Source of the DNA: Nitrosomonas sp.
GTDB lineage: Bacteria > Pseudomonadota > Gammaproteobacteria > Burkholderiales > Nitrosomonadaceae
Assembly (NCBI GenBank): GCA_008015595.1
Contig: SSFW01000051.1
Coordinates: 1-51,526 of the forward strand
Direction of reading: 5' to 3'
Length of the DNA: 51,526 nucleotides
Part shown: piece by piece, positions 19,063-22,369 of the stretch
Layout of the letters: every line of letters begins with the position of its first letter
Position numbering within the stretch: the stretch's first letter is position 1
Program-made: the position numbers and the translations under genes
The notes under the pieces: generated by a model
What the model saw: only the letters and a program-made list of their open reading frames with translations
The model's database searches: none
Told to the model about the DNA's origin: nothing

Positions 19063-19443
19063 CTATTTTCTAGTGCTCAAATCGGGTTTGCAGTAATAGC
19101 GTGAAGTAAAAATCTCGCTCCGGCGCGAGTTTTTGATTACATCCCCCCCATTTTTTACACACGACATCGTTGACTGATCAAGGCTAGCAAAATATTCATT
19201 GGAGCCTGGCTGTGAATCAATGGGTGGTACTTCTTGCCGAATTTTCTTGCAAGTTTCAGGTTCATCGTCAGCAACAATATCGCTAGTCATAGCGGGTAAA
19301 GGGCATAAACGGCATGGATTCCCAGGGCAGAGGCATCCACTGCATGAAGCCTGGGCCTGAACTTGAGGAATATAACCAAACGGAAGTAGTGCTAATAATA
19401 GCGCGATGATCTGATTTACAAATATTTTGTGTTGTTTCTGCAT
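19063..19443 (-). CDS. Cys-rich secreted protein of unknown function
   Basis: Protein of 126 aa with a clear signal peptide (hydrophobic IIALLLALLPFGYIP, cleavage likely after AQA). The mature part begins with a tight cysteine/proline cluster, CSGCLCPGNPCRLCP, and has three further single cysteines (ETCKK, MSCVK, YYCKP). The eight or so cysteines suggest disulfides or metal binding outside the cytoplasm. The ribosome site CGAGG precedes the ATG. It lies 91 nt downstream of the nucleotidyltransferase of the kinase/PqqD set and may be a late member or a second substrate of that system; a TATAAT at 19512-19507 (minus strand) could give it its own promoter. Family not recognised. Confidence 0.6.
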   Translation of the reverse strand: MQKQHKIFVNQIIALLLALLPFGYIPQVQAQASCSGCLCPGNPCRLCPLPAMTSDIVADDEPETCKKIRQEVPPIDSQPGSNEYFASLDQSTMSCVKNGGDVIKNSRRSEIFTSRYYCKPDLSTRK

Positions 19444-19534
19444 TTAATACCTCGTTTTATCTGAATTTAATACTCAATTTACCAGCTATTCCACTTAGAG
19501 AGCAAAATTATACGTGAAGTGATTGTTGTTCACT

Positions 19535-20623
19535 TTATTTCCCTGGTTTGAATCGCAACATCGTTTTGTATAGCAGATGGGGTATGAGTAAGTAGAAAGG
19601 CATTCTGATCCAATGGCTCCGCAGGTAGAGCAAAAAACGTGCAAATTTTGCTCGCTTAGAAGCCTTATCAGGATGGAGTGGAAATAAGGCCAATGGGACC
19701 AGTTGTCGCATGATAAGCTGGGAAACTACTGAAGGTTTCTGAATTAGGCGTTGCTCAGTATTTTCAGGGATTGCTGTTTGAAATATCAATCGAGAATATT
19801 GCATGCCATAGTAAAGTGAATGGCCTAACCGGAGCTGATTGGCCCGTTCTATCAATTTATTCCAAAACGCTGAGTCATGGCTTGCGAAGTATTGCAATTG
19901 GTCATGCAAATCAAGTAAATCGCGTAAGTTATCTACTAAATCGTTATTTTGAAATAGATTAACAACGCAATGTAGAGCCATATCGGTAGGGTTAAGAATT
20001 TTGTGGCCGGATTGGCTTGCAATGGCTGCATCAATAAGCAAACGTGAATCAATTTTGATTTTGCTGGTAATGGGCGAGATCGTATGATGAATATCGATTT
20101 CAGTTTCTCTTTCTTGGTGAATCAGCGCGGGAATCTCATGGCTCCAAGCTCGATAATAATGTTCGTCATAAGCTGAAATTTCGCGATGCTTCCATCCTTC
20201 TTTTAATAACGCTTTCTCAACTTGATCCAGATCATCTTTGGGAACCAAAATATCGAGATCGACAAAAAAACGTCCCTCAGCAGTAGGTAATTTAGCAAGT
20301 TGATAAGCAACACCTTTCAATACGATAATGGGGACCCGAATAGATTTAAGAGCCCAATTTATTCTATCCAACTCCCAGAATGCAAGCTGTTGTTGCTTAT
20401 TTGCGCGAATTAAACTGGAACGTAATTGACTCACTACCCTTACCGGGATTGTATCTAGCAGCTTTCTTCTTTCCAGTTCCACCGCGAGAAAGCCTAATAG
20501 TTTGACTTTCCTTGCTAACCGTAATAGTAATTCCCATTGCGCATAGGTATACTGAGTCAATGTACTTGGATTAATGAGCGCATCCAGTAACAGTTGATGG
20601 TGACTAGATAAACTAAGCTTCAT
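19535..20623 (-). CDS. Nucleotidyltransferase-family protein (PF14907-like)
   Basis: Protein of 362 aa with the nucleotidyltransferase core: VPIIVLKGVAY, then EGRFFVDLDILVPKDDL carrying the acidic DxD pair that binds metal, and later EIDIHHTI. This type of uncharacterised nucleotidyltransferase occurs beside kinase and PqqD-like genes in peptide-modification clusters, including the phosphorylated lasso-peptide clusters of the paeninodin type. The ATG overlaps the end of the HprK-related kinase gene by 11 nt, so the two are coupled. Substrate unknown. Confidence 0.75.
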   Translation of the reverse strand: MKLSLSSHHQLLLDALINPSTLTQYTYAQWELLLRLARKVKLLGFLAVELERRKLLDTIPVRVVSQLRSSLIRANKQQQLAFWELDRINWALKSIRVPIIVLKGVAYQLAKLPTAEGRFFVDLDILVPKDDLDQVEKALLKEGWKHREISAYDEHYYRAWSHEIPALIHQERETEIDIHHTISPITSKIKIDSRLLIDAAIASQSGHKILNPTDMALHCVVNLFQNNDLVDNLRDLLDLHDQLQYFASHDSAFWNKLIERANQLRLGHSLYYGMQYSRLIFQTAIPENTEQRLIQKPSVVSQLIMRQLVPLALFPLHPDKASKRAKFARFLLYLRSHWIRMPFYLLIPHLLYKTMLRFKPGK

Positions 20624-21521
20624 CAGTAAGTTTATTGAACATAGCTAATGCGCTATCAAGATCAGAGTAAACAAGCTGATAACATTGACACTTTCTAATA
20701 AGGCGAGTTACTGCTCTGAACGCTGATTCGCCTAAAATCTCATAGTTGAAAGAATTGCTAGCAAGTAATAAAAATGCTTCAGATTGTGCGAGAGGTTCCA
20801 GTTTTAAAGGCGCATTTGCAGTCCATTTTGGGAAGATGATCCACTTCGCCCTAGCAACCTGATCTGTTTTAAAGATATGATCACGAGGGGGACGAACATG
20901 GGCAATGGTGCCTTTCTGAGTATTGTAAATTTCCTCACCTAGTACCGCTTCTGGTAAATAATCTCTAATGACCTGAATAGATTGATTCTTGAGTGGCATT
21001 AATCGAGGTATGGGTGTGAAAAAATCTGAAATGGGATCCATTAAACCAAACTCATCCGAGAACAACCGATATCCTCTGTGAATAAGCGCAGTGCAGAGCG
21101 TAGTTTTGCCACTTCCTGGCCAAGCAGGTAGTAGTATTAGTGATCCATTTCTTTCCACCGCAGCAGAATGAAACATTAACAAGTGATTGACCCTTACCGC
21201 AATAACCAAATTAATCCCCCATTCTAACGCAGCTAATGCCTGATCAGCCGGGAAAGGTGGAAAGGGCGATTGGCCATCTACGGTAAAGCGAACGAATGAT
21301 GAGAAAGGATTGTTAAATGAAAATTTAGGCAGAACATGCGTGTGAATATCAACGATTTCATTTTCGACAATATCGTAATAGGCATAAAGAAAATGAAGCT
21401 GTTTTGCTAGCTGGGGAACCTCGGTTCGAATTAGAACATTGATAGGGCCTAGTTTAACTCGGATTCCTGAATGAGATAACTGAGCTATGAACTGATCAAC
21501 CGGAATCTGCTCAACGATCAC
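20613..21521 (-). CDS. HprK-related kinase A
   Basis: Kinase of 302 aa related to the C-terminal domain of HPr kinase. The P-loop is PGSGKTTL at 135-142 (after LILLPAWPGSGKTTLC), with a following acidic residue in LFSDEFGL at about D156. It lacks the N-terminal HprK domain and the HPr-binding context, so it is not a second HprK. Related kinases phosphorylate a serine of lasso peptides such as paeninodin. The start is a GTG at 21521 without a clear ribosome site, 16 nt after the PqqD-like gene, so translation probably depends on coupling. It overlaps the nucleotidyltransferase downstream. Confidence 0.82.
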   Translation of the reverse strand: MIVEQIPVDQFIAQLSHSGIRVKLGPINVLIRTEVPQLAKQLHFLYAYYDIVENEIVDIHTHVLPKFSFNNPFSSFVRFTVDGQSPFPPFPADQALAALEWGINLVIAVRVNHLLMFHSAAVERNGSLILLPAWPGSGKTTLCTALIHRGYRLFSDEFGLMDPISDFFTPIPRLMPLKNQSIQVIRDYLPEAVLGEEIYNTQKGTIAHVRPPRDHIFKTDQVARAKWIIFPKWTANAPLKLEPLAQSEAFLLLASNSFNYEILGESAFRAVTRLIRKCQCYQLVYSDLDSALAMFNKLTDEA

Positions 21522-21537
21522 ACGAATTGTTTTATCT

Positions 21538-21873
21538 TTAAGAAATCTGCTTTACTAAACCTAATTCATCAAAGCGACGCAAGGTTTTATTGATTTGCTT
21601 AGGAAAAGCAGTATCAGTTTGTAGTTGAAATTTTTTGACTAAATAATCACATATATCCGCTGTTGATAAGGCAGCGGGAGCATTGTTCTCAATATATATT
21701 AATATCTGAACACTCATTTCATTCAAATAATGAGTTTTTCCCGCATCTGGCTGAAAAACAGTAAATTCACCATCCCATTCTTCAATAATTAAAGAACCAT
21801 AATTTAGTGTTTTCCAACATTCTTCCACGAATGAGCTATAGTGTGCTTGAGTCGGGTAAAACCCCTCTACCAC
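21538..21873 (-). CDS. PqqD-like peptide chaperone of the HprK-related kinase system
   Basis: Small protein with a PqqD-like winged-helix (RRE-type) fold, the class that binds leader regions of ribosomally made peptides. The recognisable core is EEWDGEFTVFQPDAGKTHYLNEMSVQIL, then an alternating helical part ending FDELGLVKQIS. The longest frame starts with GTG at 21873 and overlaps the Tat-signal gene by 38 nt. A GTG at 21828, 7 nt after the upstream stop, gives a 96-residue protein of more usual PqqD length and is more likely. It should bring the peptide or protein substrate to the kinase and nucleotidyltransferase. Confidence 0.75.
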   Translation of the reverse strand: MVEGFYPTQAHYSSFVEECWKTLNYGSLIIEEWDGEFTVFQPDAGKTHYLNEMSVQILIYIENNAPAALSTADICDYLVKKFQLQTDTAFPKQINKTLRRFDELGLVKQIS

Positions 21874-22267
21874 TTAAGGAAGTATAAGCCGTAGCTGAAA
21901 TAATGATACCGCCTCTTGTATTACACTCTAAGGCCTGATTTTCTAAATTATCAGGATCTTGATAATTTCCACTTACCATTGGTGCAGTTCCTAAATCATA
22001 GCGGCCATCACCTAGTGGGCCGCCATTGCTGCTATCAGGATGTACGCATAGGATATCGCCGCTACTCCCACCCGTAGCAGCTGCATTGATATCAGGAATA
22101 GGGGTCCCTATATTACTGGTTCTCGCAAGTGCTGCACCGCTATGCAGTGTCATTATGACTGGTATTGCAGCCGATTTTTTCAGTAATCGTCTTCTTGCTT
22201 GTGCTGGCTTATCCAGCAAAGAATCCTTTCCTGGTTCTATTTCTTTGTTTCTATGATTTTCAGACAT
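21836..22267 (-). CDS. Small Tat-signal protein, candidate substrate of the kinase system
   Basis: Protein of 143 aa. Residues 24-30 (ARRRLLK) match the twin-arginine consensus, followed by the mildly hydrophobic AAIPVIMTLHSGAALA, and cleavage is likely after A48. The mature part (about 95 aa) is rich in Gly, Ser, Asp and Asn, has two cysteines (ILC, LEC), and ends in the serine-rich tail GRGVLPDSSTL. No catalytic motif is visible. It is first in the operon with PqqD-like, kinase and nucleotidyltransferase genes, so it may be the protein they modify, which is inference. A good AGGAG site and an extended -10 promoter precede it. Confidence 0.65.
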   Translation of the reverse strand: MSENHRNKEIEPGKDSLLDKPAQARRRLLKKSAAIPVIMTLHSGAALARTSNIGTPIPDINAAATGGSSGDILCVHPDSSNGGPLGDGRYDLGTAPMVSGNYQDPDNLENQALECNTRGGIIISATAYTSLSGRGVLPDSSTL

Positions 22268-22348
22268 ATTTACGAAACTCCTAATGGCTATCGAGGAATT
22301 CGATTTACACGCGCATTAAAGTATTTAAATGCTAACTATTTACAATCT

Positions 22349-22358
22349 CTATCGATAG
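22349..22358. promoter_or_regulatory. 10-bp palindrome at the predicted transcription start
   Basis: CTATCGATAG is a perfect palindrome placed 2 to 12 nt downstream of the -10 box of the kinase/PqqD operon, where it covers the expected transcription start. A related sequence GGCTATCGAG lies about 65 nt further downstream at 22283. It may be an operator. Confidence 0.35.
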
Positions 22359-22360
22359 CC

Positions 22361-22369
22361 ATTATAGCA
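22361..22369 (-). promoter_or_regulatory. Extended -10 promoter of the kinase/PqqD operon
   Basis: On the minus strand the sequence reads TGC TATAAT, a perfect -10 with the TGn extension, about 95 nt before the ATG at 22267. No good -35 is present at 16 to 18 nt, which is usual for extended -10 promoters. Confidence 0.55.

Follow-up and report, generated by a model that had tools for sequence, protein, structure and literature searches.

Two groups of described systems are the closest relatives of the genes considered here. Linear polyphosphorylated peptides (LPP) of Bacillota (Popov et al., Nat Commun 2026; PMC13381572) derive from precursors of 35-200 amino acids with a conserved N-terminus and a variable C-terminus; the leader of LppA is bound by a recognition element (RRE) of the kind that serves ribosomally synthesised and post-translationally modified peptides (RiPPs), and LppK phosphorylates S3 of LppA, the phosphorylated residue being S3 of the core AQSNWK. 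In lasso clusters of the paeninodin type (PMC9266682), phosphorylation by PadeK or ThcoK takes place at a C-terminal Ser, and PsmN decorates the phospho-Ser with hexoses. Here we describe a four-gene set of Nitrosomonas sp., found in a stretch of 51,526 nucleotides (contig SSFW01000051.1; the whole stretch is called the window). It encodes a protein with a twin-arginine translocation (Tat) signal, a PqqD-type protein, an HprK-related kinase and a nucleotidyltransferase (NTase), and is best read as a proteobacterial, Tat-exported variant of these systems.

The set resembles LPP in combining a discrete RRE, an HprK-like kinase and an NTP transferase, a cyclase not being obligate (PMC13381572). 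The combination of RRE, HprK-like kinase and nucleotidyltransferase homologue is also that of paeninodin/pseudomycoidin-type lasso clusters (PadeK, ThcoK, PsmK, PsmN; PMC9266682). LPP are described as restricted to Bacillota and as relying on a SipW-like peptidase together with an MsbA-like transporter (PMC13381572), whereas the leader here is a Tat signal. Neither of these two proteins was recognised among the open reading frames (ORFs) of the window or among recurrent neighbours, no hidden Markov model (HMM) search for their families having been made. Also the YxxP leader motif of LPP (PMC13381572) is rare here, [YW]xxPx occurring in 1 of 97 leaders. Because the motif is lacking and Tat is used, we regard the set as a variant of its own rather than LPP proper. 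A term search of the portion of the LPP paper available (PMC13381572) returned no mention of Tat, of proteobacterial systems or of TIGR04352.

The genes and sites in question, all within 19535-22267 of the window, are as follows.

21836..22267, minus strand: Tat-signal precursor protein, 143 amino acids, presumed substrate; without Pfam or NCBIfam match
21538..21828, minus strand: PqqD-type RRE-like protein, 96 amino acids from GTG 21828; TIGR04353 (listed earlier as 21538-21873)
20613..21521, minus strand: HprK-related kinase A, 302 amino acids; TIGR04352; P-loop at 21096-21119
19535..20623, minus strand: NTase, 362 amino acids; PF14907; DxD at 20252-20260
22124..22195, minus strand: leader of the precursor, R25-R26 to A48; twin-arginine motif and conserved P36-V-I-M-T40-L-x-S43
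22115..22117, minus strand: Ser51 of the precursor, candidate acceptor, followed by Asn52; +3 past the predicted cleavage site
21875..21898, minus strand: near-C-terminal motif S124-ATAYT-S130-L131 of the precursor; Ser130 is the other candidate acceptor

ORF and HMM checks place all four genes where the original prediction had put them, and likewise the kinase P-loop PGSGKTTL (residues 135-142) and the DLD motif of the NTase (residues 122-124). The PqqD ORF had been listed from GTG 21873, with an overlap with the Tat gene; comparison with relatives makes GTG 21828, 7 nt past the Tat stop, the more likely start. The precursor matches no Pfam or NCBIfam family at a useful E value, yet a homologue stands directly upstream of PqqD in all nine PqqD-containing relatives from the same bacterial family, so the Tat-signal ORF is a real gene. 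The genome of the window has a TatC match of 237 bits.

Kinase and PqqD-type protein are, by curated cut-off, members of what NCBIfam calls the HPr-rel-A system (TIGR04352, kinase A; TIGR04353, PqqD family peptide chaperone). These models name a kinase and a chaperone; the precursors tested (that of the window and that of L141) match no NCBIfam model. Among open-licence PubMed Central papers we found none on the HPr-rel-A families or on the proteobacterial system. With its partner identified, an enzyme set that had been an orphan becomes open to test.

We examined the pairing of Tat-signal protein and kinase in 61 genomes of the family, 250 of the order and 398 of the phylum. In the family, 12 genomes have a kinase over cut-off and ten match the Tat-protein profile, all ten with the kinase (10/12 kinase genomes, 0/49 others). 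The two kinase genomes lacking the Tat protein (G020, G008) carry a divergent kinase, 38-39% identical to that of the window, and show no PqqD gene beside it in the stretch examined, which in G008 starts at a contig end. A profile of 33 positions of the leader alone (A3; threshold E<=1e-3) was applied to the wider samples. In the order it matches 38 genomes: 34 of the 40 with a kinase over cut-off, on the same contig and 703-2077 bp from the kinase, and 4 of the 210 without, all partial and with E 2.1e-4 or weaker. Among the six kinase genomes without a match, G272 and G079 have a weaker leader beside the genes, G294 has a doubtful one (E 0.14), and G108 and G194 have an ORF with a divergent twin-arginine (RR) leader recognised by eye; in G265 no leader was found.

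At phylum level, 61 genomes have the kinase, and the leader is present in 35 of them as against 10 of the 337 without it; the 31 best leader matches (E<=3.9e-5) all fall in kinase genomes. Thus the co-occurrence in other genomes, proposed earlier as a check on the Tat protein, is clear in all three samples. Fisher tests yield very small p values, which are to be read knowing that related genomes are not independent. Taken together, these distributions support the view that the Tat protein is a dedicated partner of the kinase system.

A survey of individual loci gives the same picture, though not as an independent test, since the order sample shares genomes with it. It comprises 108 nonredundant kinase loci: that of the window, 28 of the order and 79 named ones, these last taken from Nitrosomonas, Nitrosospira, Accumulibacter, Methylococcaceae, Chromatiales and others (from 110 loci, L123 was left out for having no ORF with the P-loop pattern and L044 as a near copy). 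Nineteen close relatives served as seed for a leader profile, which was searched against 9450 six-frame ORFs. Its 98 matches, spread over 97 loci, all stand upstream of PqqD, and none of the 9450 ORFs elsewhere matched; at L114:3489-4762 two different leader-bearing precursors stand in tandem upstream of a single PqqD gene. Eleven loci have no leader match. Four of them (L050, L058, L059, L061; genomes G223, G256, G146, G186) have the precursor downstream of the NTase gene instead, four (L120, L121, L056, L057) have divergent RR ORFs visible by eye, one (L132) is cut by the contig start, and in L129 and L139 no leader was found in the stretch examined.

Gene order varies elsewhere, and the link between precursor and kinase is therefore not mere frozen synteny. 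Precursor and PqqD are both downstream in G065. In G555, G370, G423 and G323 they lie together on a different contig from kinase and NTase, which links PqqD with the precursor; G481 holds such a pair a second time, again on another contig. That PqqD travels with the precursor is just a tendency, because the precursor of G382 lies on another contig without a detected PqqD, and in the four genomes of family f43 PqqD stands beside the kinase instead.

The precursor has the motifs of a Tat substrate, namely a twin-arginine pair, a hydrophobic stretch and an AxA site, and on these motifs export is predicted; the AxA cleavage rule puts the cut after A48. Among the 98 leader matches, RR and a Thr/Ser in the hydrophobic stretch are invariant (98/98 each). 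Leu after the Thr/Ser and Ser two positions further are each present in 90, and the preceding Pro in 79, giving beyond RR the consensus P-V-[IV]-[LM]-T-L-x-S. Conservation inside the hydrophobic part exceeds what a Tat signal requires, and by its sequence the leader appears to be more than a generic one. It resembles the lasso/LPP RRE motif in its P-x-[LVI] half, and P-x-[ILVAF]-x-[TS]-L is present in 78 of 97 leaders. The leader profile is also a means of finding substrates.

The PqqD-type protein scores 48.9 bits on TIGR04353 (cut-off 35) and does not match the Pfam family PqqD, PF05402; PqqD profile matches lie beside the kinase in 106 of the 108 loci. The kinase scores 340.6 bits on TIGR04352 (cut-off 200) and the NTase 171.6 bits on PF14907 (gathering cut-off 31.2). 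Both look active, judged by their sequences, because the catalytic residues are invariant: H118, K139, D156 and E157 of the kinase in 108/108 loci each, and G104, D122, D124 and D177 of the NTase in each of the 104 loci where it was found. The kinase shares its catalytic His, Lys and Asp with lasso HprK-like kinases (PMC9266682). The NTase gene is directly downstream in 101 loci; it was not found in L093, L121, L125 and L060, and in L115, L124 and L134 the only match is on the opposite strand. At L179:4162-5490 (G265) a single ORF gives a match to the PqqD profile as well as to the kinase, possibly a natural fusion, and no leader ORF was found at this locus. The window itself also holds an ordinary HPr kinase gene (1208-2149), whose product aligns with kinase A over the His, P-loop and Asp region, together with a gene for a PtsN-like protein (751-2149 for both).

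Mature parts of the precursors differ widely. In one class, a conserved SGN...GYW region lies near the N-terminus. The remaining precursors, including that of the window, mostly share [ST][SA][SAT][AC][WAYF][TA]S[LF] close to the C-terminus; in 73 nonredundant tails the log-likelihood of this motif is 405, against a mean of 139.5 and a maximum of 156 in 15 shuffles, and its Ser column, Ser130 in the window's precursor, reaches 0.91. Ser43, Ser51, Ser124 and Ser130 are invariant in 32 aligned close homologues. AlphaFold predicts a confident small fold from about residue 51 on and a disordered leader (mean pLDDT, the predicted local confidence, 88-94 for residue blocks 51-130 and 88 for 131-140), with Ser130 in a short predicted helix; the predicted fold of the mature part has no match in the PDB. 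By analogy only, Ser51, at +3 after the predicted cleavage and followed by Asn52, can be likened to the phosphorylated S3 of the LPP core.

The original prediction had placed the modification at the C-terminal PDSSTL. This end is not conserved, just L018 coming near it (PDSSIL) while the other 8 relatives end differently; the conserved Ser residues are 51, 124 and 130. Two further kinds of precursor deserve mention. Loci L205-L213 (family f85) encode, upstream of PqqD, divergent precursors with leaders of the type RR-ALMLGAVGAS and a conserved C-terminus GFTC[FY]ASLQMPR. A GYW-like precursor at L066:532-1161 has a weak, below-cut-off Pfam match to HpuA (E 0.0011).

We consider it probable that the four genes make up a module dedicated to modification and export, working like LPP, a proposal built on sequence comparison and analogy. 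The role of the precursor as partner of the kinase system is held with higher confidence than this whole statement, and the exact chemistry with lower. The precursor would start out with a Tat signal that has the conserved P-x-[IV]-x-T-L-x-S in its hydrophobic stretch. The PqqD-type protein would bind this leader, hold the precursor for the enzymes and perhaps delay export. The HprK-like kinase would then add at least one phosphate to a conserved Ser, Ser51 or Ser130, and the PF14907 enzyme would attach a further group, for example a sugar or a nucleotidyl moiety, to that phosphate. Finally, the modified folded protein would leave through the Tat system and lose its leader. Modification, modified residue and PqqD binding are all inferred.

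The Tat signal may thus double as recognition leader. If so, RiPP-type leader recognition would be joined with export of folded proteins, and phosphate-type modification would extend from small peptides to exported proteins of many Proteobacteria, including ammonia oxidisers. A more far-reaching version, which we put forward tentatively and with somewhat more doubt than belief, is that one sequence acts as both Tat signal and RRE leader, and that the PqqD-type protein checks phosphorylation, and perhaps further decoration on the phosphate, before Tat release. At least two unrelated mature domains would then be served by the same leader and enzymes, the product might be a cell-surface matrix component, and export coupled to modification would form a new class in Pseudomonadota. 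That the product might be modified but uncyclised was part of the original prediction, and this idea has a published relative in Bacillota LPP (PMC13381572); the PDSSTL and Cys-rich elements of that prediction have fallen away.

Several observations weigh against the proposed module. Genomes within each sample are related, and their counts are not independent events. In the phylum sample, 26 of the 61 kinase genomes have no leader match at E<=1e-3, although in some of them a divergent RR leader can be recognised by eye. Just one of 97 leaders, not that of the window, contains the lasso/LPP RRE motif [YW]xxPx[LVIAFY], the Y/W at -3 being missing in the other 96. In 17 nonredundant GYW-type precursors no significant C-terminal motif was found (log-likelihood 93 against a shuffle maximum of 94), and the precursor offers at least two candidate acceptor Ser. 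Kinase A has Asp-Glu where lasso kinases are described with Asp-Asp. The NTase step is weak, because deletion of LppN produced no detectable change in the LPP system (PMC13381572). In L016/L129 and L017/L139 the stretch examined has kinase and NTase but neither PqqD nor a leader ORF nearby.

The last observation also fits a different reading, in which the trio modifies some other substrate and the Tat protein is a co-regulated exported partner such as a receptor or surface anchor. We regard this as rather improbable: a leader ORF is present in 97 of the 108 loci and a precursor downstream of the NTase in 4 more, and clustering of ORFs of at least 90 amino acids, smaller ones not being clustered, revealed no other small conserved ORF recurrent beside the trio. 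Less improbable, yet still unlikely, is that PqqD is mainly a Tat proofreading chaperone, modelled on the redox enzyme maturation protein (REMP) family, which are such chaperones, and that the targets of kinase and NTase are not side chains but a small molecule or cofactor carried by the protein. The four genomes where PqqD stays with the precursor while kinase and NTase are elsewhere would suit this, as would the position of the conserved region within the signal peptide itself and the folded, very diverse mature parts predicted. On the other hand, the conserved Ser amid variable precursors fits side-chain modification, and in two published systems (PMC9266682, PMC13381572), HprK-like kinases beside discrete RREs phosphorylate the precursor peptide.

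A set of RRE, HprK-like kinase and NTase is typical of paeninodin-type clusters (PMC9266682, PMC13381572), and could hint at a lasso peptide or other cyclised RiPP with protease and cyclase encoded elsewhere. This is extremely improbable. The B2 protease, whose absence had been asserted earlier, was indeed not found: PF13471 gave 0 matches in the genome of the window (assembly 89.6% complete), and on this ground we reject a lasso cluster proper. No asparagine-synthetase-like lasso cyclase was recognised by eye in the ORF lists, where no HMM or genome search was made for it, and the precursor greatly exceeds lasso precursors in length, with a mature part predicted to fold.

Next to the four genes lies an ORF for a Cys-rich secreted protein (19063-19443), originally counted with the operon. 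That assignment does not hold. Homologues occur in 53 of the 61 family genomes, whether or not these have the kinase, and in the 9 other genomes that possess kinase plus Tat protein the homologue is on another contig or far away; its spread and its unlinked position rule it out as a member of the system. This distribution marks it as a core gene of the ammonia-oxidiser family, unrelated to the system.

LPP genes are often near capsular polysaccharide loci (PMC13381572), and several loci here are likewise beside exopolysaccharide genes. The following neighbour counts are minima, as the order loci have short flanks. The XrtA/PEP-CTERM glycosyltransferase (TIGR03013, from tests of two members) has a homologue nearby in at least 13 of the 108 loci, and some loci, L141 among them, further encode proteins over the TIGR02915 and TIGR02916 cut-offs and a TIGR03015-like ATPase just under its own (322.6 against 324.5). 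In several Gammaproteobacteria (L141:1222-13615, L113:11970-13517) the kinase A locus adjoins XrtA/PEP-CTERM exopolysaccharide genes (EpsB_2, PrsK, PrsR). At the locus of the window, as far as the ORF list shows, exopolysaccharide-type genes are not adjacent. A Sel1/lytic-transglycosylase-like gene follows kinase and NTase in L016, as in L140, and an HtrA-like serine protease is encoded near the system in at least 12 loci, for example at L117:13775-14683.

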